Shown piece after piece: positions 3,443-34,774 of a stretch of DNA of 34,966 nucleotides. The DNA comes from Bacteroides sp. (GTDB lineage: Bacteria; Bacteroidota; Bacteroidia; Bacteroidales; Bacteroidaceae): assembly GCA_017471925.1 (NCBI GenBank), contig JAFURM010000006.1:1-34966 (forward strand). The letters run 5' to 3'. Each line of letters starts with the position of its first letter. Position 1 is the stretch's first letter. The notes beneath the pieces are model-generated. The model saw only the letters and a list, made by a program, of their open reading frames with translations. It was not told the origin of the DNA and searched no databases. The translations under genes and the position numbers were made by a program.

Positions 3443-3473
3443 CAAAGATAGAAGTTTTTTATAGAATTGCAAA
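3443..3473 (-). promoter_or_regulatory. Bacteroides-type promoter of the ATPase gene
   Basis: On the minus strand TTTG (3470-3473) is followed after exactly 19 bases by TATCTTTG (3443-3450), a full match to the Bacteroides consensus. The predicted transcript starts near 3436, about 20 bases before the ATG at 3417, which rules out longer start choices. Confidence 0.75.
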
Positions 3474-5281: not shown

Positions 5282-5820
5282 GGTTGCGTATGTTTGAATC
5301 GTCCGTACAGATAGCCGCCCAGTCCGGCAGCCACGATAATCCAGATGGGCGAAAAGCCCAACAGCCAGATGAGCAGAGCGGAAACAACTGGAATCCAGAT
5401 GTTCCTGCGGTTCACCTTGGCCGAGCGTGCCATGCTGAAGGTGGGGGCTGCAATAAGTGCCACCACGGCCGGACGTATACCCTTGAAGATGTTCTCCACC
5501 AGTTTGTTGTCCTTGAAACTGCTGAAGAAGAGGGCGATGGACAGGATGATAAGGAAAGAGGGCAGGATGGTGCCCAGTGCCGTAACGATGCTGCCGCGCA
5601 GGCCACGCAGGCGATAGCCGATGAAGATGGAGATGTTCACCGCCAGGATGCCCGGAGCCGACTGTGAGATGGCCAGCAGGTCTACGAAGTCTTCCTTGGC
5701 CAGCCAGTTGCGCTTGGTCACCACCTCATTTTCTATCAAGGGCACCATGGCATAACCGCCGCCAATGGTGAATGCGCCTATCTTGAAGAAAACGGAAAAG
5801 GCTTCTAAATAGATGTTCAT
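5278..5820 (-). CDS. Chromate-transporter (CHR) family protein, first half of a pair (180 aa)
   Basis: This is the promoter-proximal partner of the CHR pair. It carries FKIGAFTIGGGYAMVPLIE near residues 12-30, SQSAPGILAVN, GTILPSF and GIRPAVVALI, which align with the same motifs in its partner. It is hydrophobic throughout, with a basic loop (AKVNRRN) near residue 137. The two proteins together match the length of one two-domain ChrA protein, so an antiparallel heterodimer is likely. A promoter match lies 46 bases upstream. The substrate is not shown by the sequence. Confidence 0.93.
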   Translation of the reverse strand: MNIYLEAFSVFFKIGAFTIGGGYAMVPLIENEVVTKRNWLAKEDFVDLLAISQSAPGILAVNISIFIGYRLRGLRGSIVTALGTILPSFLIILSIALFFSSFKDNKLVENIFKGIRPAVVALIAAPTFSMARSAKVNRRNIWIPVVSALLIWLLGFSPIWIIVAAGLGGYLYGRFKHTQP

Positions 5821-9407: not shown

Positions 9408-9454
9408 GTGTTTCCGGAATGAGGGATTAGTCTTGTATTGATTTCGCGTGCCTA

Positions 9455-11569: not shown

Positions 11570-11624
11570 GGTATCAAAGTTATTTGTTTCGTTTTTTGTT
11601 TCCTATCGTCCACGATATGGGTGA

Positions 11625-11632
11625 CAAATATA
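11625..11632 (-). promoter_or_regulatory. Possible internal promoter -7 box before the GH65-like gene
   Basis: TATATTTG on the minus strand is a full -7 match 55 bases before the ATG at 11569, in the gap after the pectate lyase gene. No good TTTG lies at the right distance, so it may be weak or fortuitous. Confidence 0.35.
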
Positions 11633-11689
11633 GCACTTATCCCCCAATGCGGGCTTAGATTGTTTGATTGAAAAGCTAAGAGAAATGAT

Positions 11690-13066
11690 TTATCTCGCTT
11701 CTATATAGACCTCAATGTTGCTGTACTCCGGGGAGAACGTGAAGAGCGAGGCATCCCGGGGATTGGAAGGGTCGAGACCGCGCTTCCTCTCCCAGGCATC
11801 GGGCAGGCCGTCACGGTCGGCATCGCGGGGCGGCTTGCCCTGCTTCAGCGACGGCCATCCGCCCACATCGTCGGGAGAGTCGATGATGCCCTTGTCGCCA
11901 CACTTGCCCGTGCCCCAGCGTACTTCCTTCAGCACCTGACGGTCATAGCTGTCGCGCGAAAAGCTGCACCCCACCCGCTTCAGCACCTGACGGTAGGCTT
12001 CACGGGGCGTCTCTTCGGGGATGGGTTCGTAGGGAAAGGGATGGGTCACCAGACAACTCTCCGTCTCCTCACCCGGCAGAGGGATGGCCTCCGGAGCAAT
12101 GCCGGCACGCCGTTTCACGTTCTTGTCCGTGGGATAATAGGGCTTTCCCGGAGCATCGTTCACGCCCAGGTGGTTCCAGGTTGTGATGCTGTCGCTCCCC
12201 TCCAGCACATTGCCGGCCACGTAGTAGCGTCCCGTCTGGTCGGCCGCCACGTCTAACAGGAAACGATGGGTCGTTGCCGGTCCCGGCTTGTAATAGTTGC
12301 CCACCATGTTGATTTCGGCATGGTGTCCGCCACCGTATGCGGCCTTGAATCCCCAGTTATAGACCACGTTGTGGCGCATGTCCACCCACTTGGTGCCGTC
12401 TACGGAGGCAAAGCGCGGATTGCGGCTGGCATGGTTGGCCAGCAGGTTGTGATGGAAGGTGGCCTTATAACCGCCCCAGATGCCACCGAAGCCATGATTG
12501 CCCTTGGTGTGGCGGGAGGCATGCAGACTGTGGCTCACTAAGCACCATTGCACGGTGAGGTTCTCGGTTTTGTAGATGGAGAGACACTCATCGATGCTCC
12601 AACTGACGGAGAGATGGTCCAGGATGACATTCTTCTGGCCATAGCGTCCGCCGCCCAAGGCATCGGCATCGTGACGGTAATGGTCGCCTACACGAATGCG
12701 CAGATAGCGCACGATGACATTGCTGGCGTTGATGCTCAGCGGATAGTCCTTCAGGCAGATGCCCTGACCGGGGGCCGAATGTCCGGCAATAGTGATGCTG
12801 TCGTTGTTGATGCGCAAGGGTGACTTCAGTTCGATGGTACCGTCTACGGCAAAGACAACGAAACGGGGTCCGCTCGCTTCCACCGCCTCACGCAGGCTGC
12901 CGCTTCCCGAGTCATTCAGGTTGGTGACCACATAGACACGCCCGCCACGTCCGCCGGTGGTGTACTTGCCATAGCCTTCCGCGCCCGGAAAGGCAAGCGG
13001 CTGGGCCTGCAGGGCAAGGCCCGTGGACAGGAAGAGAAGCAGCGATAAAAGAGGGAAAGTTTTCAT
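11690..13066 (-). CDS. Exported pectate lyase, polysaccharide lyase family 1 (458 aa)
   Basis: This enzyme cleaves polygalacturonate by beta-elimination. A signal peptide (residues 1-21, ending ALQA) is followed by AFPGAEGYGKYTTGGRGG (25-42), the standard opening of Bacteroidota PL1 lyases. The parallel beta-helix then carries the calcium-site segment DHLSVSWSIDE (Asp150, Asp159) and the SRNPRF motif with the catalytic-type arginine (Arg215 or Arg218). The C-terminal DADRDGLPDAWE (415-426) is a calcium-binding, thrombospondin-3-like repeat often found on these enzymes. It is the best evidence that the locus targets homogalacturonan or pectin. It lies 112 bases after susD, with a strong hairpin between them. 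Confidence 0.95.
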   Translation of the reverse strand: MKTFPLLSLLLFLSTGLALQAQPLAFPGAEGYGKYTTGGRGGRVYVVTNLNDSGSGSLREAVEASGPRFVVFAVDGTIELKSPLRINNDSITIAGHSAPGQGICLKDYPLSINASNVIVRYLRIRVGDHYRHDADALGGGRYGQKNVILDHLSVSWSIDECLSIYKTENLTVQWCLVSHSLHASRHTKGNHGFGGIWGGYKATFHHNLLANHASRNPRFASVDGTKWVDMRHNVVYNWGFKAAYGGGHHAEINMVGNYYKPGPATTHRFLLDVAADQTGRYYVAGNVLEGSDSITTWNHLGVNDAPGKPYYPTDKNVKRRAGIAPEAIPLPGEETESCLVTHPFPYEPIPEETPREAYRQVLKRVGCSFSRDSYDRQVLKEVRWGTGKCGDKGIIDSPDDVGGWPSLKQGKPPRDADRDGLPDAWERKRGLDPSNPRDASLFTFSPEYSNIEVYIEAR

Positions 13067-13178: not shown

Positions 13179-15176
13179 TTAGTAGCAAGGATGTTGTTGG
13201 TCGGCAAGGCCGGGGTTTACGTCAATGATGGCTGTTGTGTTGAACGGCAGGATTTCCACCTTGTTCTTCTGCAGGCCATAATAAAGGCCGGTGCCACCCG
13301 TAATCCATACGTTCTCGGTAGAGAGTCCTTCCACTTCCTTCACGCAAAGGTTACCCTTGTTCTTCAGCGTATTGATGCTGAACATGTTCAGGATGGTATA
13401 TTCCACCTCTTCGGCTTCCACACCTTCGGGCACGGCATCGGCAGTGAAATAGACTTCGCCATTGGCTTCATAGAACTTCTTGTTCAGGGCACCCTTGGCC
13501 TTGGCATTCAATACGTGGAGCGTGTTCAGTTCGTCCTCCGTAAGTCCCATGCCTACCAGATCGTCTTCGGTCATGGAGATGTAGGACAAGGCGATGGTGG
13601 GGTCATCAAGCGTAGGTGCAGAGGTCAGCTTGTAGGCACGGTAAACGTCCACATCGGCATACTGTCCCTCACGGTTGGCCAGCTGTACGAGCTTGGCTTT
13701 CTCGGCTGTCAGATGATCCACCAATATACCCCAACGGGCAAGGTCGCTCTTGCGGAGACCCTCATTGGAGAGTTCCAGTTTGCGCTCCTGGATGATGAAG
13801 TTCCGGAAGCTCTCATAGTCTGTCGGGATAGTACCAATCTTGCTTTCGTCACCCTTGAAGGCACGGGTACGTACCTGCTTCACGGCATTTACGGCTTCGG
13901 CATTGGCACCGTTGTTCAGCTCGTTCAATGCCTCGGCATACATCAGCAGCACATCGGCATAGCGCAGCATGGGCCAGTTGATGTCGCGCTTGGAGTCGGA
14001 CGAACCGCGCTCTTTCTTCCAGTTGACACGATACTTGCCCACGCCCATACCGGCAAAGGTGTTCATCTGATAGGCATCGGCACCTTCAGTCTTGCTGAGA
14101 TTCAGACCATAGTTGCAGATGGAAACGTCACGGCGCTGGTCGCCTTCGTCATACTCAAAGTAGAAGGTAGGCATGGCTATCATCTGTGCCACACACTTTC
14201 CAAGAACAGGGCTTACCACGCCGGTAGCGGGCAGACCGTTGGTATAGCCTGTACGTACATCCACACTGTTGGTGCTGTACCAGCCATATTCAAACATGGT
14301 CTCCTCGTTGTAACGTTGGTTGGCCAGGTCGCGGAAGAGTTGGTCATAGTCGCTCACCAGGCCGTTTTCACCCTTGGTAATGACAGCCTTGCAGGCATCG
14401 GCAGCAATCTGATACAGTTCCTTGATGCGTGCGGCATCGCTGCGTTGGGCAATCTTCACCGTGCTCTCGTCATAAGGAGCCTGGCTGAGGTCCCAACGGA
14501 GAGAGTAACCGGCGGCGTAGAGGGCTACACGTGCCAGGATGCCATAGGCGGCATTCTTGGTGAAACGCTCGGGCGTAGGCACCATACCTTCGCTCTTCCA
14601 GGGCAGGAGTTCCACAGCACGCTGAAGGTCGGCGATGCAATGGTCATAGATGGTGTCGCGGCTGACGCGTGAGGAAGAGAAAGTCGTCAGGTCCGAAGTG
14701 GGAATGTTGGTATAGGGCACGTCGCCATAGAAACGAACGATGTTCCAGTAGGCATAGGCACGAATGGCCAGGGCCTCACCCAGGAGTGCATTGATTTGCT
14801 TCTGTTCCGCTTCGTTGGCTGCACTCATGCCGGGCAGGTTCTTGATACAAACGTTGGAGTACTCAATGGCCTGATACATGGTGGTATAGGTCTTGCTCAG
14901 CATACCCGTCAGGTTGGTGTAGTCATAGTTGGAGACATTGTACTTGGAGTTGCCCTCCGTAGAGACCGACTCATCGGTACCCATAAGCAACTGATAGCCC
15001 AACTCCTGCGTGTGCAAGGAGGCGTAGGCACCCACTACTGTCATTTCAGCTCGGCCGATAGTGGCAAAGATGGACGAGCTGTCGGCCTTGGATTCAGAAG
15101 GCATGTCCAACCAGTCTTCGCAGGAGGTAAATGCCAACATAGCCGACAATCCTAATATAGTATATATCTTTTTCAT
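13179..15176 (-). CDS. SusD/RagB-family surface glycan-binding lipoprotein (665 aa)
   Basis: This protein caps the SusC-type channel and binds oligosaccharide at the cell surface. A lipoprotein signal ends at Cys19 (MLAFTSCEDWLDMPSESKAD). The SusD features are clear: an N-terminal tetratricopeptide-like region with LGEALAIRAYAYWNIVRFYGDVPY, and near the end WPMLRYADVLLMYAEALNEL followed by IIQERKLELSNEGLRKSDLARWG. At 665 residues it is somewhat longer than typical SusD proteins. The extra length lies mainly near the C-terminus, with a run around residues 500-620 that could shape the binding site. The start lies 16 bases after the susC stop, so the two are co-transcribed. Confidence 0.97.
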   Translation of the reverse strand: MKKIYTILGLSAMLAFTSCEDWLDMPSESKADSSSIFATIGRAEMTVVGAYASLHTQELGYQLLMGTDESVSTEGNSKYNVSNYDYTNLTGMLSKTYTTMYQAIEYSNVCIKNLPGMSAANEAEQKQINALLGEALAIRAYAYWNIVRFYGDVPYTNIPTSDLTTFSSSRVSRDTIYDHCIADLQRAVELLPWKSEGMVPTPERFTKNAAYGILARVALYAAGYSLRWDLSQAPYDESTVKIAQRSDAARIKELYQIAADACKAVITKGENGLVSDYDQLFRDLANQRYNEETMFEYGWYSTNSVDVRTGYTNGLPATGVVSPVLGKCVAQMIAMPTFYFEYDEGDQRRDVSICNYGLNLSKTEGADAYQMNTFAGMGVGKYRVNWKKERGSSDSKRDINWPMLRYADVLLMYAEALNELNNGANAEAVNAVKQVRTRAFKGDESKIGTIPTDYESFRNFIIQERKLELSNEGLRKSDLARWGILVDHLTAEKAKLVQLANREGQYADVDVYRAYKLTSAPTLDDPTIALSYISMTEDDLVGMGLTEDELNTLHVLNAKAKGALNKKFYEANGEVYFTADAVPEGVEAEEVEYTILNMFSINTLKNKGNLCVKEVEGLSTENVWITGGTGLYYGLQKNKVEILPFNTTAIIDVNPGLADQQHPCY

Positions 15177-15192
15177 ATTGCGTTTATCAGAT

Positions 15193-18100
15193 TTAGAATG
15201 TTAAATTAGCTCCGATTACCCAGCTCTTTGAGCGCGGATAGGATGAGTTGTCAATACCAGGGGTCAATGCACTTGACGAAGCGCTCACTTCAGGGTCATA
15301 ACCCTCATATCCGGTGAAAGTATGGATATTGTTCAGCGTGCAGTAGATGCGTGCCTTGTTCAGCTTGACGCGTTGCAACCACTTCTTGGGGAAGCTGTAG
15401 CCCAGCGTGATGGTATTCAGACGCAGGTAGGAACCGTCTTCAATGTAGTAGCTGCTATGGTCGCTGATGGCCGTCTTGTTGTTGGTAGAGATGTTCCACA
15501 TGATGTCGCTGCCATACTGTCCGGGGTTCATGGCGGCCAAGCGGGCCAGGTCGGTGCTCTCCTTACCGGTTTGCGGGTCGATGAGGGTGAAGCGGTTGGC
15601 CATCTTGCCGATAGAATTCTGGTTGGCCAGGTAGGGACCTACGAAACGCTGTGTACTCATGTTGAATACATCGTTGCCTACGGAGAAGTTCATGAAGATG
15701 CTCAGGTCGAAACCTTTATAAGTAAAGGTGTTGGTCCATCCGCCTACAAAGTCGGGGGCTGCATTGCCAATGACGGTGCGGTCGTTCACGCTCCATACGG
15801 GGTTGCCGTCCTTGTCGGTTTCACCGGCAGTGGGCACATACTTGGCATCACCGGGCTTCACGTTCTTGCGGTCGAAGCCTTTCAGTGAGGGTACACCGTC
15901 CTTCAGGCTATAGGTACCGTCGGCATTCTGTGTGAAGTCGTCGGTGGTGTAGATGCCGTCATAGAGCAGACCGTAGAACTGGCCGAGAGGCTTGCCCTTC
16001 TCAATCTTGAAGCCCATGCGGGACTCATAGTCCTGGATGAAGTGGTCCGTTTCGCTGTCTCCATAGATGTCCAATACCTTTGACTTGTTGAAGGAGACGT
16101 TGAGGTCCATGCTCCAAGTGAAGTCCTTGGTACGGATGTTGGTAGAGTTAAGCACGATTTCCACACCACGGTTGCGGATAGAGCCCAGGTTCTGATACTG
16201 GTAGCTATAGCCGGTGGAGGTAGGAATCTTGTTCTTGATCAAGAGGTTGGATGACTCGTTGTTATACCAGTCTACCTGTACATTCAGGCGATTGTTTAAT
16301 ACGCTGAAGTCAAGACCAATGTTGGTTGTTCTGGTCTCTTCCCACTTCAGGTTCTTGTTACCCAATGTGTTACCGGGAACATAAGTGATGTAGTCGCTAC
16401 CGTTGATACCATAGTGGCCTGAGCCGTAAGAGGTGGCATACATATTGCTCTCGATGGCGTTGTTACCGGTAGTACCGTAACCCACGCGGAGCTTCAGGTT
16501 CTGCACATATTGCTTGAAGTCTTCCATGAAGGGTTCTTCCGTGATGCGCCATGCGGCTGATGCTGAGGGGAAGTAACCCCATTGATTGTCCTTGGAGAAC
16601 TTGGAAGAACCGTCGGCACGCAGTGTGGCGTTCACCAGATAACGCTCTTTCCAGTTGTAAGAGAGGCGACCGAAGAAGGATACCATACCCTCCTTGTCCT
16701 TGCCTGAGGTCCATACGGTGGGAATACCCATGCTGACATCGTTCAAGCCAAAGTTACCGTCAGAGAACTTGCGGTAGTCGTTCTTCAGGTTCATGTTTTC
16801 CCAATAGGTAGTCTCCTGACCCAAGAGGACATTAAAATGATGGTCTTCTTCAATGTCGAAAGCATAGTTCAGCGTGTTGGTAATCTGCCAGGTGTAGGCT
16901 TCGCTGTTGTTGCGGTAGCCATAGCCATAGGGGCTTTGATAGGAACCGGCCGTTCTCGTGGAGCCATCGTCCCAATAGTCCTGACGGACTTGCTTCCAGG
17001 TGTAGCTGGCAGCGGTACGCCACATGAGGTTCTTCAGAATGTCAAATTCAATACCTGCATTGACATTGATTATGCGCGTGTACTTCTCATTGTCAATGGC
17101 GTTGTTGTTCAGGATGGGGTTGTTGGCGTCATAGCTGTCGCCGCCATACATGCCGGAGTAGGTGTCGGCGAGGTCAGAGCCAAGCAGTTCTTCGTTGGTC
17201 CAGCGCTGGCCACCGGTCACGGGCTGCAGAATGGTCTGCTTCAGGGTACCGCCCAAAGAGCCTCCACCGGTCACCTTGGTCATCTGAAGGCTGGTGGCGA
17301 AGTCTAAGCGAACACCCTTCCAAAGCTCATGGTTGATTTTGGCACGGATGCTGTTCTTCACGTAGTCGTGCTTGTCCATGATGCCGTCTTCGCTGACATT
17401 GTTGTAGCTCAGCATGTACTTGGTCTTCTCACTGCCACCCGAGATGTTCACGTTGTGGTTGTGGGTCACGCCGGTACTGCCAAACACTTCGTCCTGCCAA
17501 TCCAATGCGGCAGCGTTGCCATACTGGCCGGCGATGCGGCCATAAGCACCGGTATAGAAGTCGGATGCGTTGACGTCGCCACCGAAGATGTTGCTCCAGC
17601 TGTCTTCATAACCGCGTAGCAACTGGAACTCATACTGATACTTCACGTAGTCTTCCACGTTCAGCAGATCCAGTTTCTTGCCCAGGTGGGAGAAGCTGAC
17701 GAAACCGTTGTAGGAGACCTCGGTCTTACCGCTCTTGCCCGACTTGGTCGTGATGATGATAACACCGTTGGCACCGCGTGCACCATAGATGGCCGTGGCC
17801 GATGCGTCCTTCATCACGTCGATGGTCTCGATGTCATTGATGTCTACGTTCTGCAAACCGTTTTCCATCTGGAAACCGTCCACGATGTAGAGCGGATCGG
17901 TGCTCTGCGTGATGGAAGTACCGCCACGCACGGTAATCTTGACGTCGGCACCGGGAGCACCACTCTGTGAAATGACATTCACACCGGCAGCCTTACCGGT
18001 CAATGCCTGAGCGGCCGTAGTCACCGGAGCCATGGCCAGTTCCTCACCTCCTACCGAAGCAGTGGCAGCGGTCAAGTCTCTGCGCTTAACCTTGGCATAG

Positions 18101-18435
18101 CCAATGGCCACAACTTCATCCAGCATCTGGCTGGACTCTTTCAACGTAATCTCAAAATGGGTTTTGCCCGCAATGGCAACGGTAGCATTTTCATAACCGA
18201 TAAACGAAACCACCAGTTCCTTGGCCGAAGCAGGAACCGTAAGACTAAACTTACCGTCAATGTCGGTAATGGTACCGATACTGGTGTTTCCTTTCACTGT
18301 TACAGATGCTCCGATTACAACGTCCATCGCGTCGCGAACCGTACCCGTAATCTTCTTGTCCTGAGCCCAAAGGCCTAACGGACAGCCTATCAAGAGAATC
18401 ATCAATAGGCAAAGGCTTTTGTGTAAAATTCTCAT
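15193..18435 (-). CDS. SusC/RagA-family TonB-linked outer-membrane transporter (1,080 aa)
   Basis: This is the import channel of the pectin locus, energised through TonB. A signal peptide (MRILHKSLCLLMILLIGCPL, cut near AQ25) is followed by a carboxypeptidase-regulatory-like domain (about 28-110, KKITGTVRDAMDVVIGASVT). Next comes the plug domain with VVAIGYAKVKRRDLTAATAS and the SusC signature DPLYIVDG, then IDVMKDASATAIYGARGANG. The rest is a beta-barrel ending in an aromatic residue (GANLTF). No TonB-interacting sigma-regulator domain is present. It is the first gene of the locus. A hairpin with a T-tract and a possible promoter lie in its 202-base upstream gap. Confidence 0.98.
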   Translation of the reverse strand: MRILHKSLCLLMILLIGCPLGLWAQDKKITGTVRDAMDVVIGASVTVKGNTSIGTITDIDGKFSLTVPASAKELVVSFIGYENATVAIAGKTHFEITLKESSQMLDEVVAIGYAKVKRRDLTAATASVGGEELAMAPVTTAAQALTGKAAGVNVISQSGAPGADVKITVRGGTSITQSTDPLYIVDGFQMENGLQNVDINDIETIDVMKDASATAIYGARGANGVIIITTKSGKSGKTEVSYNGFVSFSHLGKKLDLLNVEDYVKYQYEFQLLRGYEDSWSNIFGGDVNASDFYTGAYGRIAGQYGNAAALDWQDEVFGSTGVTHNHNVNISGGSEKTKYMLSYNNVSEDGIMDKHDYVKNSIRAKINHELWKGVRLDFATSLQMTKVTGGGSLGGTLKQTILQPVTGGQRWTNEELLGSDLADTYSGMYGGDSYDANNPILNNNAIDNEKYTRIINVNAGIEFDILKNLMWRTAASYTWKQVRQDYWDDGSTRTAGSYQSPYGYGYRNNSEAYTWQITNTLNYAFDIEEDHHFNVLLGQETTYWENMNLKNDYRKFSDGNFGLNDVSMGIPTVWTSGKDKEGMVSFFGRLSYNWKERYLVNATLRADGSSKFSKDNQWGYFPSASAAWRITEEPFMEDFKQYVQNLKLRVGYGTTGNNAIESNMYATSYGSGHYGINGSDYITYVPGNTLGNKNLKWEETRTTNIGLDFSVLNNRLNVQVDWYNNESSNLLIKNKIPTSTGYSYQYQNLGSIRNRGVEIVLNSTNIRTKDFTWSMDLNVSFNKSKVLDIYGDSETDHFIQDYESRMGFKIEKGKPLGQFYGLLYDGIYTTDDFTQNADGTYSLKDGVPSLKGFDRKNVKPGDAKYVPTAGETDKDGNPVWSVNDRTVIGNAAPDFVGGWTNTFTYKGFDLSIFMNFSVGNDVFNMSTQRFVGPYLANQNSIGKMANRFTLIDPQTGKESTDLARLAAMNPGQYGSDIMWNISTNNKTAISDHSSYYIEDGSYLRLNTITLGYSFPKKWLQRVKLNKARIYCTLNNIHTFTGYEGYDPEVSASSSALTPGIDNSSYPRSKSWVIGANLTF

Positions 18436-23621: not shown

Positions 23622-24623
23622 TCAGAACTCGATGTCCTCGAACTCATTAATCAGCAGCTGATACTTGATGTAGCCGCCCGACTTGGATGAGTACTTGGTG
23701 TAGATGGCCGTTATGTTGCCCTGGCTGCCGTGGGCAGGCAGAGGCTCCAGCGCGAAGTTGGAGTAGCCGCTGACGCGCACGATGAAGTTGCTCGCCTTGC
23801 TCTTCTCGTCACCGGGGGTATAGGTAAAGAGGGCGGAGCCATAATAACGCTCGTTGTCGTAACTGTAGGCATAGGTGGGGGTCAGCCCCTCGGCGGCATA
23901 GTACTTGTTGGTATAGGTGGCCGTGGTGGAGCCGTTCAGGTAGAGGGTCTCCAAGTATTGCGGATACTTGTCGCCGTCAAAGTTGCCTTCCTTATAGGTC
24001 AGCCCTTCGAAGCGCACCAGGCGTCCCAGGGCATCATCACTCAGCGTCGTTTTATAGTTGTCGGGGGTCACTACAAGGATGTCGCCGGAGGTTATCTCGC
24101 CCTGCTCACCCTCGAACACGTGCTGGTTGAGCTGCATCATGGTCTCCATGTTGCGGTTGGCATAACCCTTGGCAATGTCGTCCTCGGTAGGCATCAGGCC
24201 CACGCTCAGCATGAAGCGGTAGTTGCCTATGGCCAGCCCCTTGGTCTTCACGTAGAGCGTCTGGCCGGGCTGATAGTAGACGTAGTTGCTCACCATCAGT
24301 TTCAGCTCGATGGCCGACTGGGAGTCGGCATCGTAGATGTATACCGACTTGTAGACATTGCCGTCCTTGTCACTGGAGATGACCTTGCCCTTGATGACAT
24401 AGTCGTCGGTAATCTCCAGGGTCTTGGCCAGCGACGAGGAGCCGTTGCCGTAGGCGTCATAGAAGAGTTGCTTGAAGTCGCGGATGGAAATCAGCTTGCT
24501 TCCGCCGAAGTCGGCGTCTGTCCACACCTTGGCGGGTTCCGGGTCGTCAAAGTCTTCGTAACATCCGGTGAAGCCCGCAGCGAGCAGGAGGACAAGACAG
24601 GTATGTATCAGTTTGTTCATCAT
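23622..24623 (-). CDS. DUF5689-type surface lipoprotein (333 aa)
   Basis: The protein has a lipoprotein signal ending AAGFTGC (Cys21), followed by the acidic linker YEDFDDPEPAKVWT. Acidic residues directly after the cysteine are typical of surface-exported Bacteroidota lipoproteins. The remainder matches what I know as DUF5689: LISIRDFKQLFYDAY, then YVIKGKVISSDKDGNVYKSVYIYD (an OB-fold-like strand pattern) and YYQPGQTLYVKTKGLAIGNY near residues 115-135. By position, 25 bases after a TonB-dependent receptor gene, it could serve as the receptor's surface lid or binding partner, as SusD does for SusC. The ligand is unknown. A second ATG directly follows the first, so the start could be one codon later. 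Confidence 0.9.
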   Translation of the reverse strand: MMNKLIHTCLVLLLAAGFTGCYEDFDDPEPAKVWTDADFGGSKLISIRDFKQLFYDAYGNGSSSLAKTLEITDDYVIKGKVISSDKDGNVYKSVYIYDADSQSAIELKLMVSNYVYYQPGQTLYVKTKGLAIGNYRFMLSVGLMPTEDDIAKGYANRNMETMMQLNQHVFEGEQGEITSGDILVVTPDNYKTTLSDDALGRLVRFEGLTYKEGNFDGDKYPQYLETLYLNGSTTATYTNKYYAAEGLTPTYAYSYDNERYYGSALFTYTPGDEKSKASNFIVRVSGYSNFALEPLPAHGSQGNITAIYTKYSSKSGGYIKYQLLINEFEDIEF

Positions 24624-24648
24624 AATCTTTCGTCTTTAAATTAATGTC

Positions 24649-27390
24649 TTAGAAACGGAAATAAACGTTCAGGTAATAGTTCGTGCCGAAGAGATAGAAG
24701 TACTTGGAGTCGAAGGGCTGGTACTTCATGATGCTCTCCTCCTTATTCTTCAGCAGACGGATTTGCTCGTAGCCGCCGGTCTTGATGTCTTGGTCGTTCA
24801 GCAGGTTGTCCACACTGAGGCTGAAGCCCAGGGTGTACTTGCGCTGTATGTACCAGTTCTTGCCGATGCTGGCATTCATCACGAAGGCACCGTCGAACTT
24901 TTCCTGGTCGCGCAGCAAGGCCATGTCATCGGCCGTCATGTTGGAGGTGAGCACGGCATCCGTGCGGTAGAGCGGACTCATGGAAAGATACATGTGGTCG
25001 TAGTAGTTGCAATCCAGAGAGAGGAACAAGTTGTTGCGGCTGCGATAGTTCAAGCCGATGTTGGCGGCCAGCTGGGGAGTGCTCTCCACACGCTTGTTCT
25101 TCCAGTAGACCTTGCCCTGGTTCTTGATTTCGCCGCTGTTATCCTGAATCTGCACGAAGTCGGGGTTGGAGTTGTAGGTATATTGGCCCCAGCTCAAGGC
25201 ACCGCGCAGGGAGAGGCCCTCGTACAACGGTACGGAGACGGCAGCCTCCAAGCCGAAGTGACGCTTGTCGATGCCGCTCATGGCAAAGTTGGAGAAGGTG
25301 GTCTCCACGTCGTCATAGTAGGAGATGACCTTCGCCTGATCCATGAACATGGTGTAGTAACCGGAGAGGCGTGCCCTGAAGTCGCCCAAGCGGAGGTTGT
25401 AGGAAGCATCCACGCCGAAGATACGCTCTTCGTCTATGCCCGGTGTCGCGGCGTTGCGCGTGCGCGGTGATACAAAGGCGTAGTGGAAGGCCGGTGCGTC
25501 CTGCATGTAGGTGATGTTGGCTTCCAGCGTGTGGGCCGCCGTAATCTTGTAGCGGAAGTTGGCCTTTGCCTTATAGGTCAGGTAGTTCTGCTTCTTGGAG
25601 TCGCCCTGGGAGTCATCGGGGAAGAGTCCCTTCTTCCAAAGGCCGTGACGCCACAGGCTGTTGTGGCCTATCTCACCACCCAGGTTCACCTCCACATTGG
25701 CCAGATTGAAGTTATACTGTGCCCACGCACGTGCATGGAATACGTTGCCATAGTAGTCGTAGCTGTACTTGTCGCCCTCCTTCACGATGGGAGCATGGCC
25801 ATACTTGTTATAGTAGTCCATGTTGTTCTGATACTTCAGCGGGTCCATACCGCCCATGTCGCGCTCGGCGAACTTGTCGATGTCCACCCAATAGTCACCG
25901 CCCAGGAGGTCCTTCACCTCACTGTAATACTCCGTGCGGTTGCGGCGGATGTTCACGCCGCCCGTCAGCTTGGAGTTGTCCTTGAAGAGGTGGGAGAACT
26001 GGGTGTAGAGGTTCCAGTCGAGCTGGTCGGTGTGACGCTCTTCAATCATGTTGATGGAGCGGTTGCCCGAGCCATAGCGTTCGTTGCCCGTCTGCGTGCG
26101 GTTGATGTCATAGAGGTTGTCGAAGTTGATGTGGCGGATGTCATCGGTGTTGGCCATCCACGCCTCCTGCAGCCAGGCGCCGGTCGTAGTGCCCTCATAG
26201 AAGCTGGGCAGGTAACGGTAGTAGTCGGGTCTCGGGTCGGGACCGCCATACCACGTCAGGGCCGAGTAGCCGTTCTGCCCGAAGCGCAGGGAGGTGGCCG
26301 CACTCAGTTGGGTGCGGTCGGTAAGGTCCCAGGTGTAGTTCAGCATGGCGATAGGTTCATGATAATCGCGCACGCGGGCATTGCGGCGCTTGCCGTTCTG
26401 CCAACCCCAGTTGGGGTTGTAGTAGTTGTTTCCTACCAGGTCGTAGACCTCCTGTGTAGAGGCCTGCTGTGCTCCGCGCTCGGTGGGGGCACCGAGCAAG
26501 GTCAGGGTCAGGCGATGCTGCGGATTGAACTGTTTCTCCACGGAGAGGAAATAGCCGTAGGCATTATAGAAGACGCCCTTCACGTAGTCATTGCCTCCCT
26601 GACGGGTGGAGAGTGAGAAGGCATAGGACCAGCCGTTGTCCTGAGGACCGGAAGCATAGGTCACCATGCCACGATAGCGATACATGCTGTTGCTGTTCAC
26701 CAGGCTCATGCGCCATCCCTTGCGCATCTGTGAGGGGCGGGTGTTGATGTTGGTCACGCCGCCCACGCCGCCTACGCCCACGTTGGTCATACCCAGGCCG
26801 CTCGTGATTTCCTGGTTGCGGGTGGCATCGTTAAGGCCGCTCCACAGAGACCAGGGCGTGTAGCCGGTCATGGCGTCGTTCAGCTGGATGCCGTTCAGGT
26901 AGACGTCGGAGTATTGGGAATCATAGCCGCGCACGTTGAAGCGCATTTCGCTGAACTGATAGGAAGCGATGTTGTTGAAGATGTCCTTGGAGGCCGACAG
27001 GGAGGAGGGCAGTGACTGGGCGTCTTCCATCGTCTCGGTGTCGAACTCGGCAAAGATGGCATCGTCCACCGTGTGTGTACGCTCGGGTACCATCACCACA
27101 CGCACCTCACGCAGGTTGGTTCCTACGCGCACGGGCAAGGTCAAAGGCTCATACTCAATGGCCTCGAACTGCAGGCTGTACTCGCCCGGTTTCAGATTCT
27201 CGAACAGGAAAAGGCCTGCCTCGTCCGTCGTGGTCGTTGCATCGCCCGGCGTAAGGGTCACCTTCACGCGGGCAATCTTGTCGCGCGTGGTGCGCGACTC
27301 CACTGTACCCTTGATGCCTCCGCCCACTTGTGCGTAGCCGGCCAGGGCAAACAGGGTTGCAATCAACAGGAGAAATGTCTTTTGTCTCAT
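24649..27390 (-). CDS. TonB-dependent outer-membrane receptor (913 aa)
   Basis: A signal peptide (MRQKTFLLLIATLFALAGYA) is followed by a carboxypeptidase-regulatory-like domain (about 22-95, GGIKGTVESRTTRDKIARVK). Next is a plug domain with FNVRGYDSQYSDVYLNGIQL and GVGGVGGVTNINTRPS, then a large beta-barrel ending YYLNVYFRF. It lacks the SusC-type DPLYIVDG signature, so it is a TonB-dependent receptor outside the SusC class. A TTG three codons upstream is possible, but the ATG at 27390 starts the signal peptide cleanly. It lies 14 bases after the exported phosphatase-fold gene and 25 bases before the DUF5689 gene, so it is central to this operon. The substrate is inferred, not shown. Confidence 0.95.
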   Translation of the reverse strand: MRQKTFLLLIATLFALAGYAQVGGGIKGTVESRTTRDKIARVKVTLTPGDATTTTDEAGLFLFENLKPGEYSLQFEAIEYEPLTLPVRVGTNLREVRVVMVPERTHTVDDAIFAEFDTETMEDAQSLPSSLSASKDIFNNIASYQFSEMRFNVRGYDSQYSDVYLNGIQLNDAMTGYTPWSLWSGLNDATRNQEITSGLGMTNVGVGGVGGVTNINTRPSQMRKGWRMSLVNSNSMYRYRGMVTYASGPQDNGWSYAFSLSTRQGGNDYVKGVFYNAYGYFLSVEKQFNPQHRLTLTLLGAPTERGAQQASTQEVYDLVGNNYYNPNWGWQNGKRRNARVRDYHEPIAMLNYTWDLTDRTQLSAATSLRFGQNGYSALTWYGGPDPRPDYYRYLPSFYEGTTTGAWLQEAWMANTDDIRHINFDNLYDINRTQTGNERYGSGNRSINMIEERHTDQLDWNLYTQFSHLFKDNSKLTGGVNIRRNRTEYYSEVKDLLGGDYWVDIDKFAERDMGGMDPLKYQNNMDYYNKYGHAPIVKEGDKYSYDYYGNVFHARAWAQYNFNLANVEVNLGGEIGHNSLWRHGLWKKGLFPDDSQGDSKKQNYLTYKAKANFRYKITAAHTLEANITYMQDAPAFHYAFVSPRTRNAATPGIDEERIFGVDASYNLRLGDFRARLSGYYTMFMDQAKVISYYDDVETTFSNFAMSGIDKRHFGLEAAVSVPLYEGLSLRGALSWGQYTYNSNPDFVQIQDNSGEIKNQGKVYWKNKRVESTPQLAANIGLNYRSRNNLFLSLDCNYYDHMYLSMSPLYRTDAVLTSNMTADDMALLRDQEKFDGAFVMNASIGKNWYIQRKYTLGFSLSVDNLLNDQDIKTGGYEQIRLLKNKEESIMKYQPFDSKYFYLFGTNYYLNVYFRF

Positions 27391-27404
27391 AAGTATCAAG
27401 TTTA

Positions 27405-28442
27405 TTATTTACCTATATATATGTATACGGGGAAGTGGTCGCTGTAGCCTCCCTGGAAGGTGTTGCCCACGAATGTACGCAACGGGTAGCCCTTGTACTG
27501 CCCCTCCTTCTGCACCATGTAGTGTTGCTTGAAGATGTTGCCGTAGAACTTGCTGCCATCGGCCTTCTTCAGCTTCAGGCATCCCTTGCGGGCGTTCACG
27601 AGGTTCTCGCTCACGACGATGTTGTCGAAGATATTCCACGCGTCGCTGTAGGCCAGGGTGCCATAGCCAGCACGCAACATGTCGGTGTAGGGAGAGAAGA
27701 GGTCGCCGGGGCGCAGGTCCTTCACCTTGCGCTTGGCGTTCAGGCACTGGGCGATGCTCTTGTCGGTAGGGTCGTCATTGAAGTCGCCCATCATCACCAC
27801 CTTGGTCTGCGGACGCTCCTGCAACACGGAGTCGGCAATCTGGCGCATCTGTGTGGCAGCGGCCATACGCTTGTCCTCGGAAGCCTCCTTGCCGCCCAAG
27901 CGCGAAGGCCAGTGGGCCACCATGAAGAGGAAGTCCTCGCCCTCTATCTTGCCCCACATGGTGAGAATGTCGCGGGTGCGGAAGTTCTCCACGGAGGTGA
28001 TGCTGGTCTTGAACGCCTTCTCCCCTTCCAGCTTGAAGACATCGGGACGGTAGAAGAAGGCCACGTCCACGCCACGGGCGTCGGGCGAGTCATGATGTAT
28101 GATGCGATAGTCGGCGGGTGCCATCTTCTTCATCACCACCAGGTCTTCCAGGACGTTGCGGTTCTCTATCTCCGATAGGCCGATGACCACGGGATAGTCC
28201 TTGTTGATGGCAGCGATGTCAAAGAGCACGCGCTCAATGTTGCCCAGTTTCTTCTGATACTTCTCCTGTGTCCATGCTTTCGGTCCCTGGGGAGTGAATT
28301 CTTCATCGTGGGTGTCCGGGTCGTCGACGGTGTCGAAGAGATTCTCCACGTTGTAGAAGACCACCTTATAGGGCTTCCGCTGGGCAACGGTCAGGACGAC
28401 CGGCAGGAGCAGGAGGCATACGGTAATCAATAATTTCTTCAT
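27405..28442 (-). CDS. Exported endonuclease/exonuclease/phosphatase-fold enzyme (345 aa)
   Basis: This belongs to the DNase I-like metal-dependent phosphoesterase superfamily. A signal peptide (MKKLLITVCLLLLPVVLTVA) targets it to the periplasm or surface. All core motifs are present: FYNVENLFD (Asn31, Glu33), GLSEIEN (metal-binding Glu91), AHWPSR (His177), GDFND (Asp220, Asn222) and SDHFP (Asp335, His336). It is therefore likely to be active. Members cut DNA, RNA or smaller phosphodiesters, and the sequence does not decide which. It lies between a NUC1-type endonuclease and a TonB-dependent receptor, with gaps of 42 and 14 bases. That order fits stepwise breakdown of extracellular nucleic acid before uptake. 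Confidence 0.95.
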   Translation of the reverse strand: MKKLLITVCLLLLPVVLTVAQRKPYKVVFYNVENLFDTVDDPDTHDEEFTPQGPKAWTQEKYQKKLGNIERVLFDIAAINKDYPVVIGLSEIENRNVLEDLVVMKKMAPADYRIIHHDSPDARGVDVAFFYRPDVFKLEGEKAFKTSITSVENFRTRDILTMWGKIEGEDFLFMVAHWPSRLGGKEASEDKRMAAATQMRQIADSVLQERPQTKVVMMGDFNDDPTDKSIAQCLNAKRKVKDLRPGDLFSPYTDMLRAGYGTLAYSDAWNIFDNIVVSENLVNARKGCLKLKKADGSKFYGNIFKQHYMVQKEGQYKGYPLRTFVGNTFQGGYSDHFPVYIYIGK

Positions 28443-28484
28443 ACGGTATATTGGTGTTATGGGTTACACAGCATTATGTCAGGG

Positions 28485-29690
28485 TCAGTTCCAATTGATA
28501 TTCCAGTCGGAGGTGTTATAGTCTTGCTTCACGGCCGGGTCCACCGTGGGGAAGAAGGTGAATCCCGTCTTCTTCTCGATGGCTTCCACACTCATGCAGA
28601 TGGTGCGTGGGGGCTGGATGTCGCCATAGTTCTTATGCTCCACCCAGAAGCCTATACTCTTCAGCTGCATGGCCGTGCAGTCCTGTATGGCCTTGCCCGT
28701 AGAGCCGGTCTTGGTGCGAAGCAGCACCTTGAAGTAGTGCGTAGGCAGGGGACATACTCCTCCCATATAGTCTGTCGTGGAGGCGGTGGAGGCGGCGTCA
28801 TAATAGGCTCCGGTCACTACATAGAGCGTGTCGGAGCATCGCTGGTTGCGCACCTCGCTCTCTAAGTGCATCCACATCTGTTGGTTGAGTTTGTTGAGCT
28901 GAGGGGTCATGTTGGAGAAGTAGAAGGTCTGCTCGTTCAGTTCGGCACTTCCGGTGCGGTCGCCTGAGGGCAACTGGTGTCCACGGTCGTAGGAGCCCCG
29001 GTAGCTCTTGAAGAGATTGGCCTGTGCCTCTTCGGGGACGTAGGGGTCAAAGTCCCAGGCATCCGTGCGGCTCACGCCACCCACGTAGGCGGAATGTAAG
29101 GGATAGGCCACCCACAAGGCCACTTTGCGTGTCTTGTCGAAACACATGGAGTAGTTGCGCACTTCCTTGCCGTTGAGCTTGGCATAATGGGTGACATATT
29201 GGTAATTCTTGTTTTCCACTGCTGAGGGTGTCTCTGCCCATGTGCCCATCGTGGGCACGACCACTTGTCCGGCAGCCTGTTGCGTAAGGGTCAGTGTCTG
29301 CTTGCCTCCGTCGGCAAAGGTGAAGAGGATAGTGGCTACACGTTGTTCGGCTGTAGAGTTGTTGCGGAAGTAGACGTAGCACACGTTGATGCCGTCGGTC
29401 ACCGTGCCGCCGGTCGTGGCCGCATCGTCCGAGTAGTCGGAATAGTCGAAGGAACACCACCCCACTCCATCCGTTATCTCAGCCGTCCAGGCAGTCCCCA
29501 GCGTACCGCTAATCTGTACCGTCGCATTGCCTTTGGTCGATGCCACAGCAGAAGCCGTCTTCCACGCCGCACTGCACGTTGAGGTCTCGTCTGCATCATC
29601 AGAACTGCCCCCACAGGCGGTGAAGAGGGAGAGAAAGAGGAGGGAAAGGAAGAGGGTATTTTTCAAGATATGGAATGTATCAAGTATCAT
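28485..29690 (-). CDS. Lipoprotein DNA/RNA non-specific endonuclease, NUC1 family (401 aa)
   Basis: A lipoprotein signal (LSLFTAC, Cys26) anchors this nuclease outside the cytoplasm. Residues 45-140 look like a BACON-type beta domain (ITDGVGWCSFDY, ending TLTLTQQAAG). The catalytic domain follows with the NUC1 motif DRGHQ (235-239, general-base His238). SNMTPQ supplies the metal-binding Asn260, and WMHLESEV the Glu277. All key residues are intact, so it should cut single- and double-stranded DNA and RNA. The cytoplasm would be protected by export. It follows the 944-residue lipoprotein gene after 81 bases that contain a terminator, and it precedes the phosphatase-fold gene by 42 bases. Confidence 0.95.
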   Translation of the reverse strand: MILDTFHILKNTLFLSLLFLSLFTACGGSSDDADETSTCSAAWKTASAVASTKGNATVQISGTLGTAWTAEITDGVGWCSFDYSDYSDDAATTGGTVTDGINVCYVYFRNNSTAEQRVATILFTFADGGKQTLTLTQQAAGQVVVPTMGTWAETPSAVENKNYQYVTHYAKLNGKEVRNYSMCFDKTRKVALWVAYPLHSAYVGGVSRTDAWDFDPYVPEEAQANLFKSYRGSYDRGHQLPSGDRTGSAELNEQTFYFSNMTPQLNKLNQQMWMHLESEVRNQRCSDTLYVVTGAYYDAASTASTTDYMGGVCPLPTHYFKVLLRTKTGSTGKAIQDCTAMQLKSIGFWVEHKNYGDIQPPRTICMSVEAIEKKTGFTFFPTVDPAVKQDYNTSDWNINWN

Positions 29691-29710
29691 TCTTAATAGA
29701 AGAATATGAT

Positions 29711-29753
29711 TAAAACAAAAATAACTCTTGACGGGATTACTCCCGTCAAGAGT
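29711..29753 (-). terminator. Intrinsic terminator between the 944-residue lipoprotein and NUC1 genes
   Basis: A perfect 13-base stem (29724-29736 with 29741-29753) with a TTAC loop is followed on the minus strand by ATTTTTGTTTT. It would end or reduce transcription before the nuclease genes. The T-tract contains TATTTTTG (29716-29723), a -7 match that could restart transcription. Confidence 0.8.
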
Positions 29754-29771
29754 CTTCCTAAAGAGGATATA

Positions 29772-32606
29772 TTACTTCAACTGAAAACCACACATCACTG
29801 CACGTCCGGCACTGCTTGATGCATCATCGAAGGTGTCCGTAGTGGAAATGGTAATTGTAGAGTTCTCGGTCAAACCTTTCAAGGAAACAGAATAATAGTC
29901 GCTACCGGCAAAGGTAACCGTAAAAGGAGAGTTGTTTGATGCACCCTCATTGGCGGTCAAAGCAATACCGTTTGCTCCTGATACTTCCCCACCGTTATCC
30001 ACTCTGACATAAAGGGTAGCAGTTTTACCCTTCCAAGCCACTGCATAGAATGACAAAGTCTTGTCACCCGTGACACCTACAGCAGCAGAAGTGAATGTAC
30101 CGGCTTTTTTAGAGGTTCCTAACTTAACACCCTTAAAGGTAGATTCGCCTATAATAATGTCAGCTTCAGAAGCACTACCTACATTTGTTCCATTTGCAAA
30201 GTTAAATGCAGCTATTGATTCATAGGTTGCCTCTGTACTCGGTGTATCCGGTGTCGGGTCAGGTTCTTCTGTAGAGCCATTATCCATAAAGTCTGCGGCA
30301 TCTTCTACATTACGCGGCAGCAACTGCGGAGTAGATTTATAAGCACCTACAATACCCGTCAGTGAACCGGTAGTGGCCTTATAGGAAAGTCCGTCAAAGC
30401 CTGTGGCATTCTTGTTCAGATAGACTACCAATGCTTCGCCATTTACGGTGAACTGTGTGCTCATGTTGGATGCACTACCGGAGTTCTTCCATATATTTCC
30501 TTCGGCAGTCGTCACGTTCTTGATGGTTACAGGCATGCTGTAGTATTCGGCCATCTGGGCAGGGGTAATCTCTATCGGAGTCACCGTGTGGCCGGAGGAA
30601 ACGACAACAACATCTGCGGCTTCCCATCCCGTAATCTGCGTGATGCCATTATAAGCGCCAAGGGTAACATTGGCAGCCTTCAGGCTTACCTTCACCTTGT
30701 CGCCCAATGCATAATTGGCCGATACATCCACCTTATTATTATATAAGGTTATACCCTCACCACCGGTAGTTGCACCTTCGGTCATGATGTACAGCGTACC
30801 ATAAGAGAAGTTACCACCCTTGGGGTCACCGCTCACGATAGCTTCAAACTCCATGTCGGCAGACAAGGCCGTAGTGCCGGCTGCATACATCTCCAGTAGC
30901 GTGGCAATAGCAGACTTTTCGCTCGGCTTCGGCTCTTCACCACTACCCATAAAGGCTTTCACGTCATCCAGGTTACGAGGAACCAACTGTGAATTGTTCT
31001 TGTAAACAGAAGCTATGCCGACAATGTCACCGGTTGCCACTGTGAAAGACTGGCCATCGAATACGGAGCCTTGCTTGCAGAATACGGCAAACTCCTTGCC
31101 ATCGGCTGCGAAGGTATTGGTACCATAGTTTTCAATGACCCACGTATTGGCTGCGGCAGGAGCGGCATTCTTTACCACTACCGTCATAGCCTGATAGCCG
31201 GCCAATTGGTCGGGAGCAATAGCCACCGGAGTAATCTCTGCAGTACCGATCTTCTCGATTACACACCATGTTTCATTCTTGCCGCCAGTCACTTCATTCA
31301 AGCCGCTATACAGCTTGGCCGTAGCCAAACCGGCCTTAAGGGTAACCTTAATCTTATCACCCTTGTTCAATCCCAAGGTCTTGGGATCTACCTGACTGCC
31401 ATAGAGCGTTACGCCCTCACCGGCTTTGCTGGCACCCTCGGCAGCAACCTGCAGGTTGTTGTTGGTGTAGTTGCCACCTTCAACGTCACATTGCACAACG
31501 GCCTCAAAGTAGCGGTCGGCAGTTGCATCAATGACCGGTCCGTCTTCTGCCATCATGGCATTGATTTCAGCAATGGTGATGACTTTGGCTTCAGCCGGAG
31601 TCTCAGCCGCCGCTTCAAAGTCTACCTCCTGACCACCTTCGCCCGTAGCCAGCGTGATGTCGTCTAAGCGGATAGCTGAGCTAACCTCTGTATCAAACTT
31701 GATGTAGAGTTCCGTCGTGGCCTGCTTCAGGGTGAAGTCGGCCGTTGCAAGTACCCAGTAAGGAGTGGCTTCATCACCCTTGTTCTTGGTGTAGGTAATA
31801 GGAATCCACTTGCTGCCATCGTTGCTCACAGAGACCTTGAACAGGGAAGTGTCGAAGGTATTGACATATTCGCCAGTATCATCAGATTTCAAGGAATAGC
31901 TGGCACCGAAAGTCAGTTTCAGCTTCTTCTGCTCGCTTGTCAGGGCAATCTTATTGATATAGAAGGTGGTGGGAGCCGTTCCGAAGAACACCACGTTGGG
32001 GCCTGAAGCACCTTCGTATGCACCACTATTGGAGAGACCGGAGTTGCGTACGCTGACCTTGCCGCTCGAGCCGTAGGTTACGTTGGCCGCACCTTCACCC
32101 GTCTTCTTCCAGCCGGTGTAAGCATCCACATAAGGCTTGTCGGAAGCGCTGGCATCATCGCCCACCGTTTCGTTGAATATCACAGCCGTCGGAGTGTCCG
32201 GTACTATCGGTTCGTCTGCACCAAAGCTTTTCACCGTCACCGTTTCCGACATCAACACACCACTGCTGTTGACAATCTGCACATCCACCTTGGCCGTACC
32301 CGAAGTACCTGCAGGCACGCTGACCGAAATCTGAGCATCCCCGTCACCGGTCGTCTTGGAGAGAGTCAGCCAAGTGGCATCATCCTGCACGGTTATCTTC
32401 CAGGGGCGATTGGTCTTCACCTCAAAATAGTCCTGGCTGTCGGCAGTAGGCTTGCCGTCTTCACCAAACGTCAGGGATGTCGGAGAAACCTCCAGATAAG
32501 GAGCTTCGGTGTCGTCATTGTCGTCCACACAAGCCGTGACTGTCAGCATCATAAGCATCAGCAGCAGGCTGTGCCATGAACTCAAATAGCTAATTAGTCT
32601 TTTCAT
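29772..32606 (-). CDS. Large surface lipoprotein: BACON domain plus two duplicated DUF5689-like/OB-type modules (944 aa)
   Basis: The lipobox is TVTAC (Cys26), followed by the acidic VDDNDDTEAP expected for surface export. Residues 36-127 are a BACON domain (YLEVSPTSLTFGEDGK, RPWKITVQDDATWLTLS). Residues 140-325 look like a jelly-roll binding domain ending IRLDDITLATG. Two tandem modules follow, about 343-553 and 565-774, sharing an order of motifs: EGVTLYGSQVD and EGITLYNNKVD, then GDKIKVTLKAG and GDKVKVSLKAA, then SQLVPRNLDDVKAFM and PQLLPRNVEDAADFM. After a Pro/Thr/Asp linker, residues 795-944 form another beta domain. The modules resemble the DUF5689/OB-fold type, a fold that often binds nucleic acid. 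It has no catalytic motif and is probably a surface-binding protein. The operon promoter is upstream. Confidence 0.9.
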   Translation of the reverse strand: MKRLISYLSSWHSLLLMLMMLTVTACVDDNDDTEAPYLEVSPTSLTFGEDGKPTADSQDYFEVKTNRPWKITVQDDATWLTLSKTTGDGDAQISVSVPAGTSGTAKVDVQIVNSSGVLMSETVTVKSFGADEPIVPDTPTAVIFNETVGDDASASDKPYVDAYTGWKKTGEGAANVTYGSSGKVSVRNSGLSNSGAYEGASGPNVVFFGTAPTTFYINKIALTSEQKKLKLTFGASYSLKSDDTGEYVNTFDTSLFKVSVSNDGSKWIPITYTKNKGDEATPYWVLATADFTLKQATTELYIKFDTEVSSAIRLDDITLATGEGGQEVDFEAAAETPAEAKVITIAEINAMMAEDGPVIDATADRYFEAVVQCDVEGGNYTNNNLQVAAEGASKAGEGVTLYGSQVDPKTLGLNKGDKIKVTLKAGLATAKLYSGLNEVTGGKNETWCVIEKIGTAEITPVAIAPDQLAGYQAMTVVVKNAAPAAANTWVIENYGTNTFAADGKEFAVFCKQGSVFDGQSFTVATGDIVGIASVYKNNSQLVPRNLDDVKAFMGSGEEPKPSEKSAIATLLEMYAAGTTALSADMEFEAIVSGDPKGGNFSYGTLYIMTEGATTGGEGITLYNNKVDVSANYALGDKVKVSLKAANVTLGAYNGITQITGWEAADVVVVSSGHTVTPIEITPAQMAEYYSMPVTIKNVTTAEGNIWKNSGSASNMSTQFTVNGEALVVYLNKNATGFDGLSYKATTGSLTGIVGAYKSTPQLLPRNVEDAADFMDNGSTEEPDPTPDTPSTEATYESIAAFNFANGTNVGSASEADIIIGESTFKGVKLGTSKKAGTFTSAAVGVTGDKTLSFYAVAWKGKTATLYVRVDNGGEVSGANGIALTANEGASNNSPFTVTFAGSDYYSVSLKGLTENSTITISTTDTFDDASSSAGRAVMCGFQLK

Positions 32607-32647: not shown

Positions 32648-32678
32648 CAAAGGTATAAAAATCCTATAAAAATCCAAT
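32648..32678 (-). promoter_or_regulatory. Promoter of the nuclease/TonB operon with an exact 11-base tandem repeat
   Basis: On the minus strand ATTG (32675-32678) is followed after 19 bases by TACCTTTG (32648-32655), a full -7 match. The spacer consists almost wholly of GGATTTTTATA repeated twice without a gap (32665-32675 and 32654-32664). A third GGAT lies 10 bases further upstream. Repeats one helical turn apart are typical binding sites of OmpR/PhoB-type response regulators. Confidence 0.6.
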
Positions 32679-34701: not shown

Positions 34702-34774
34702 GATTCGCTAGCTCAGCAGGTAGAGCACAACACTTTTAATGTTGGGGTCTTGGGTTCGAGCCCCAAGCGGATCA
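34702..34774 (+). tRNA. trnK: tRNA-Lys (anticodon UUU)
   Basis: A full cloverleaf can be folded by eye. The acceptor GATTCGC pairs with GCGGATC with one G:U, and the discriminator base is A. The D arm is GCTC/GAGC. The anticodon stem is CAACA/TGTTG with loop CTTTTAA, giving anticodon TTT. The T arm is TTGGG/CCCAA around TTCGAGC. The mature length is 73 bases. CCA is not encoded (CTG follows). Confidence 0.97.

Follow-up and report, generated by a model that had tools for sequence, protein, structure and literature searches.

Natural transformation of Riemerella anatipestifer provides the closest described relatives of the locus reported here. According to a transposon screen for natural transformation in this species (PMC8459023), the CarboxypepD_reg outer-membrane protein RA0C_RS04915 is encoded next to RA0C_RS04920, a protein with DUF5689 and DUF5017, and markerless deletion of either gene abolishes transformation (below ~4.2e-10 vs 5.4e-5). 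Pilus homologues have not been detected in R. anatipestifer, which raises the question of how DNA crosses the outer membrane, and the authors of the screen left the conversion of double-stranded to single-stranded DNA unknown. Here, we describe a related operon of five genes, A to E, in a stretch of 34,966 nucleotides from Bacteroides sp. (GCA_017471925.1, contig JAFURM010000006.1; the whole stretch is called the window). With a probability of roughly two in three, we take it to encode a DNA importer powered by TonB and of the kind that serves transformation in R. anatipestifer, as a variant equipped with nucleases of its own. Its genes are as follows:

A, 29772-32606, minus strand: lipoprotein of 944 residues with two DUF5689 stretches, a marginal BACON_2 match and a C-terminal part weakly like the surface DNases of the type IX secretion system (T9SS)
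B, 28485-29690, minus strand: NUC1 (DNA/RNA non-specific) endonuclease lipoprotein of 401 residues, DRGHQ intact
C, 27405-28442, minus strand: exported endonuclease/exonuclease/phosphatase (EEP) of 345 residues, PF19580, without lipobox, core motifs kept
D, 24649-27399, minus strand: non-SusC TonB-dependent receptor, 916 residues from a TTG start or 913 from the ATG at 27390
E, 23622-24623, minus strand: DUF5689 lipoprotein of 333 residues, of which 31-183 are predicted to be OB-like

An open reading frame check of the window and Pfam searches confirmed what a preliminary description had given, namely five genes on one strand with these families and with intergenic gaps of 81, 42, 14 and 25 bases, the 14-base gap between C and D assuming the ATG start of D.

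The kinship with the Riemerella pair extends along both proteins and to the neighboring gene. In the genome in which the Riemerella locus was placed, the order is recA, four genes, comEC, two genes, an EEP gene, the receptor, and the DUF5689 lipoprotein; the placement was made by comparing this order with the tags RS04870 (RecA), RS04895 (ComEC), RS04915 and RS04920, which advance in steps of five, with comEC and the other domains confirmed and recA recognized from its start only. A contig of R. anatipestifer CCUG25054 has the same layout of EEP, receptor, and lipoprotein. Window D aligns with the R. anatipestifer receptor with 28% identity over 919 columns (3e-115), E with the DUF5689 part of the lipoprotein with 25% over 344 columns (2e-14), and C with the Riemerella EEP with 36% over 402 columns (2e-75). 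A profile of 29 D sequences, of which the Riemerella receptor is itself one, aligns with that receptor over 901 columns. With 599 bits, the Riemerella lipoprotein is above the cut-off of 475 for the model lipo_M949_1556, and like RS04920 as described, it contains a choice-of-anchor J domain; the equation of M949_1556 with RS04920 is based on the name and score of this NCBIfam model. Because of its position upstream of the receptor, RS04910 would belong to the same family as C. In the available text of PMC8459023, RS04910 is mentioned once, in a passage on quantitative reverse transcription-PCR, and Table 2 lists no deletion mutant for it.

Receptor D matches CarboxypepD_reg in Pfam (8.5e-12), with Plug below threshold, and its predicted structure has the fold of a TonB receptor with, by our own count, 22 barrel strands. 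Neither of the SusC models TIGR04056 and TIGR04057 matched D, although the other receptor in the window reached 890 bits on TIGR04056 and thus served as a positive control; the earlier placement of D outside the SusC class therefore stands. Against solved structures, the D profile matched four chains, all through the N-terminal domain only, one of them a fragment of a SusC homolog. In a tree of 29 D sequences and 9 sequences of a sister receptor class, T2, the D sequences occupy one side of a branch with a support of 100/100, and within it the window D groups with two genomes of the same genus (100/100) and next with G032 (100/100). Three further D matches (G496:C343, G369:C16, and G437:C130) contain one stop codon each, a possible sign of decay or a sequencing error.

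The T2 class was considered as the same system and rejected: it lies on the other side of the tree, and DUF5689 or EEP was found in 0 of 8 T2 stretches and NUC1 in 2 of 8 (a ninth T2 was set aside because its stretch is shared with a D locus, and one of the eight stretches has only 4.9 kb). In four relatives of the same genus (L046, L048, L049, and L052), a T2 receptor gene is located next to ettA or in its vicinity; ettA also flanks the window operon. In L048 and L049, a NUC1 gene follows downstream of the T2 receptor with a lipoprotein gene in between, the lipoprotein of L048 being without a Pfam match.

The association of D with its neighbors is conserved far beyond the genus. Among 198 genomes of the phylum, 28 matched the D profile with at least 722 bits, and the next match had 257; these are the window genome and 27 of its 48 class-mates (class count read off), with D in 0 of the 149 others. 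A PF19580 gene is present in each of the 28 and in 79 of the 170 genomes without D. As judged by eye, this gene lies about 600 bases or less from D in 18 of the 28; in 7 it shares the contig with D at a distance of 8.6 to 47 kb, and in 3 it is still more distant or on a different contig. A flavobacterial genus, g22, accounts for six genomes (G061, G065, G108, G182, G210, and G214) in which the EEP gene is not beside D but 16 to 47 kb away. Within the order Bacteroidales, 113 of 247 sampled genomes have D at a level of at least 587 bits, which gives the reach of the receptor core, and 8 more have only weaker matches of 318 to 474 bits (121 in total); in the genus of the window, D was found at 504 bits or more in 7 of 25 genomes, its own included.

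From the 113 genomes, 60 loci of 43 families were fetched, chosen manually in ranking order where the flanks were usable, and searched with our own profiles. A DUF5689 gene followed downstream of D on the same strand in all 60. Since T2 stretches had none (0/8), the linkage of D and DUF5689 is beyond chance, and the conservation of gene order that the preliminary description had proposed to look for is there, albeit with the NUC1 form as the rarer one. An EEP gene was directly upstream of D in 46 of the 60 (divergent in 42, on the same strand in 4) and elsewhere in the stretch in 2; it was not found in 12 stretches, some of which end near D. In 13 further loci (the window and L033-L044), a DUF5689 gene was present in 12, bringing the total to 72 of 73, and an adjacent EEP gene in 10, with L036 and L044 located at contig ends. 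Of 14 stretches from other families that had been picked by the lipoprotein (L089-L102), 13 contained D, each time with EEP beside it (13/13). A DUF5689 lipoprotein gene (11175-12497) was also seen in L097, a stretch without D; the D of that genome (G057) is on another contig.

NUC1 is distributed differently. It occurs in 6 of the 60 Bacteroidales loci and in none of the other 54 stretches, and all eight loci in which EEP is on the strand of D (the window, L033, L034, L039, L182, L189, L213, and L227, with the NUC1 gene of L033 cut by a contig end) carry NUC1 upstream on that same strand; they come from the families f1 and f9 only. NUC1 is arranged differently in six more D loci (L037, L038, L040, L041, L224, and L234), and the first four of these have two NUC1 genes around D. 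From this distribution, we regard NUC1 as an addition to a wider core of D, E, and C, and the operon on one strand as its rarer form. Where the loci are divergent, the aligned NUC1 proteins encoded on the side of EEP in L037 (6190-7350) and L041 (13002-14162) have TRGH in place of DRGH, and no DRGH was found in those of L038 and L040.

The two lipoproteins of the window share DUF5689. E has one match (1.1e-33), after which the protein ends, and A has two stretches (1.6e-45) together with a BACON_2 match just above the cut-off; the C-terminal stretch of A reached 24.8 bits on the model of the T9SS surface DNase (cut-off 260). Acidic residues after the lipobox cysteine are a pattern of surface export in Bacteroidota, and lipoboxes followed by acidic residues are present in A (C26, then VDDNDD), B, and E. 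In a comparison of the predicted structure with solved folds, residues 31 to 183 of E are predicted to form an OB-fold-like domain that would resemble Mcm10 and RPA, and the matches were mostly nucleic-acid OB domains and lysyl-tRNA synthetases. By sequence, no solved structures were found for A, C, or E at the thresholds used.

As to the nucleases, B belongs to Endonuclease_NS (PF01223, 5.3e-43), and its solved relatives are listed as Nuclease and Endonuclease G, including Anabaena-type NucA and EndoG entries. C matches Exo_endo_phos_3 (PF19580, 6.4e-117) and has kept FYNVEN, SEIEN, RGVDV, HWPSR, GDFND, and SDHFP, so that a motif check bore out the earlier statements on the DRGHQ of B and the core motifs of C. 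A lipobox is absent in 22 of 24 compared C proteins, that of the window included, and C is probably periplasmic. Membership of C in ExeM/NucH was rejected, as the model matched only in part and with 44.4 bits (1.1e-11; cut-off 300). An anti-phage defense system was likewise discarded: PADLOC gave no match at 0.001 for A, B, C, and E, the four proteins searched. Another phosphoesterase of this family is encoded in the window genome without linkage to the operon (G000:C57:19129-20133, L002) and is 38% identical to C.

Taken together, these findings point toward an uptake route in which the DUF5689 lipoproteins E and A would bind DNA on the outside of the cell, where the surface nuclease B, to judge by its family, would nick or trim it. 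TonB would then drive the DNA through D, with E as surface partner, as the homology of D and the Riemerella deletions suggest. Exported C, given its place beside D, may act in the periplasm by degrading or trimming one strand or the DNA ends, and a membrane-anchored multi-HHH protein and ComEC may carry single strands onward. The imported DNA could serve recombination, food, or both, the two not being exclusive. The window genome (89% complete) encodes ComEC, DprA, a DUF1343 protein, and the multi-HHH protein; judged by position, the Riemerella HHH gene would be RS02645. Consistent with an involvement of TonB, mutants in tonBA and tonBB had lower transformation (PMC8383284).

Several observations weigh against DNA import. 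D and E are only 25 to 28% identical to the tested Riemerella proteins, and E lacks the C-terminal choice-of-anchor J/DUF5017 domain of RS04920, for which reason we file the window locus as a variant and not as a plain member of the Riemerella type. D is absent from 21 of the 48 class-mates and, at the level used, from 134 of the 247 genomes of the order, and in the stretch of one D locus (L042), both E and EEP are missing. Of 14 control genomes, 10 have a match to ComEC and 11 to DprA, and each of the 49 class genomes, the window's own included, has a multi-HHH match better than any outside the class, although D is present in only 28 of the 49. Whether the multi-HHH protein is distributed along with D, which was examined as a test of the competence reading, accordingly did not discriminate, and since all three proteins are common in controls or in genomes without D, we regard their presence as permissive and not specific. 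Furthermore, a surface endonuclease fits scavenging better than the uptake of long DNA, which favors scavenging for the NUC1 subtype.

The preliminary description had indeed read the operon as a harvesting system, in which NUC1 cuts extracellular DNA or RNA, D imports the oligonucleotides, and the phosphoesterase frees nucleotides or phosphate in the periplasm, without recombination. Of this proposal, nucleic acid as the likely ligand, two exported nucleases beside a TonB receptor, the non-SusC receptor, and the conserved order are supported; feeding as the purpose is not established, the closest characterized relatives of D and E being needed for transformation. The intact DRGHQ of a surface NUC1 in the same operon, the NUC1 gene in eight of eight loci with same-strand C, which looks like an ecological specialization in two families, and the two NUC1 genes around D in some relatives would all suit it, and natural transformation in the genus of the window was not found in the literature searched, outside of which lie most subscription papers and all preprints. 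However, 54 of the 60 D stretches are without NUC1, the sole tested relatives act in transformation (PMC8459023), the domain annotation of the window shows no gene for nucleotide or phosphate uptake next to the operon, and a TonB receptor is not known to pass oligonucleotides as food either. As an account of the whole system, we therefore consider nutrient harvesting unlikely, although it is a serious rival for the NUC1 subtype and could be the function gained there. DNA uptake is the better base reading because the relatives of D and E are essential for transformation and because the core of D and E, mostly with C, is far more common than the NUC1 form.

It is also conceivable that D imports another ligand, such as a metal chelate, a vitamin, a glycan, or a peptide, or has a part in shaping the surface of the cell, and that the loss of transformation in Riemerella is indirect. 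The solved folds nearest to D are receptors for pyrroloquinoline quinone (PQQ), siderophores, copper, and B12, all of them small ligands; the M949_1556 lipoprotein family is cited in O-antigen biosynthesis, antigenicity, and pathogenicity of strain CH3, so the transformation phenotype could be a secondary one; and the authors of PMC8383284 suggest nutrient or iron effects for the tonB mutants. Such a role does not fit well with an EEP gene next to D (46 of 60 loci in Bacteroidales, 18 of 28 D-bearing genomes of the phylum), joined by NUC1 in two families, with the fold matches of E, which are mostly nucleic-acid OB domains and lysyl-tRNA synthetases, or with the same all-or-none phenotype of two separate clean deletions (PMC8459023), and we give it little credence.

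For DUF5689 and RA0C_RS04915, the literature searched yielded PMC8459023 only, and no other paper on the gene set was found by titles and the beginnings of abstracts. The view that no example had been characterized thus holds for the five-gene set but not for the core of D and E, which is already known, genetically, in one species. Not found there were the class-wide linkage of EEP, the prediction of an OB-like lipoprotein, the occurrence of the core in almost half of the Bacteroidales genomes sampled, and the NUC1 operon on one strand. If D imports DNA, this would matter for gene transfer among gut bacteria and for their scavenging of DNA, and the EEP protein, which is encoded beside D in most loci examined and was not deleted in the Riemerella study, becomes a concrete candidate for the missing nuclease. 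More broadly, and with less than even odds in our estimation, gut Bacteroidales may have a pilus-free, TonB-powered DNA intake, with capture by DUF5689 proteins, passage through a 22-strand receptor, and the neighboring EEP as the missing nuclease that readies DNA for ComEC, all of it united, in the NUC1 subtype, in one operon that includes a nuclease for cutting at the surface.

The operon is flanked by ettA and a gene for a DbpA-type helicase. About 42 bases upstream of A, TACCTTTG (32648..32655, minus strand) is weakly like TAnnTTTG, which we take to be the -7 element of Bacteroides promoters; a strict two-element promoter pattern gave no match upstream of A, its sole match in the window being at 3443-3473. 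The only hit of an Rfam scan of the window was a tRNA (34702-34774, plus strand). A separate uptake locus (13179-18435, minus strand) is a true SusC/SusD pair, directly downstream of which large proteins, mostly of unknown family, are encoded (6252-13066). Two adjacent chromate-transporter genes are located at 4733-5820 (minus strand).

Among known systems, SusC/SusD loci likewise combine lipoproteins with a TonB-dependent receptor that has an N-terminal carboxypeptidase-like domain. A SusC/SusD-type system was rejected for the operon, since D matches no SusC model and no SusD family match was found for A or E in Pfam, which recognized the SusD elsewhere in the window. EndA, the uptake nuclease of pneumococcal transformation, is a DRGH-type surface nuclease with a part in taking up DNA, as is proposed for B; EndA acts in a Gram-positive organism without TonB. 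The BtuB-BtuG system, in which a receptor for vitamin B12 is paired with a surface lipoprotein, has, to our knowledge, no nuclease genes. It differs further in its small ligand, and the identity to the Bacteroides thetaiotaomicron proteins (PDB 8blw) is low (12-13%).

The Riemerella pair remains the nearest match. Both loci have a non-SusC receptor followed by a DUF5689 lipoprotein, with homology along the length of D and an EEP gene adjoining. They differ in that the EEP gene is divergent in Riemerella, whereas all five genes of the window are on one strand, in that the Riemerella stretch has no NUC1 or A-like gene, and in that the Riemerella lipoprotein has the extra choice-of-anchor J/DUF5017 domain.

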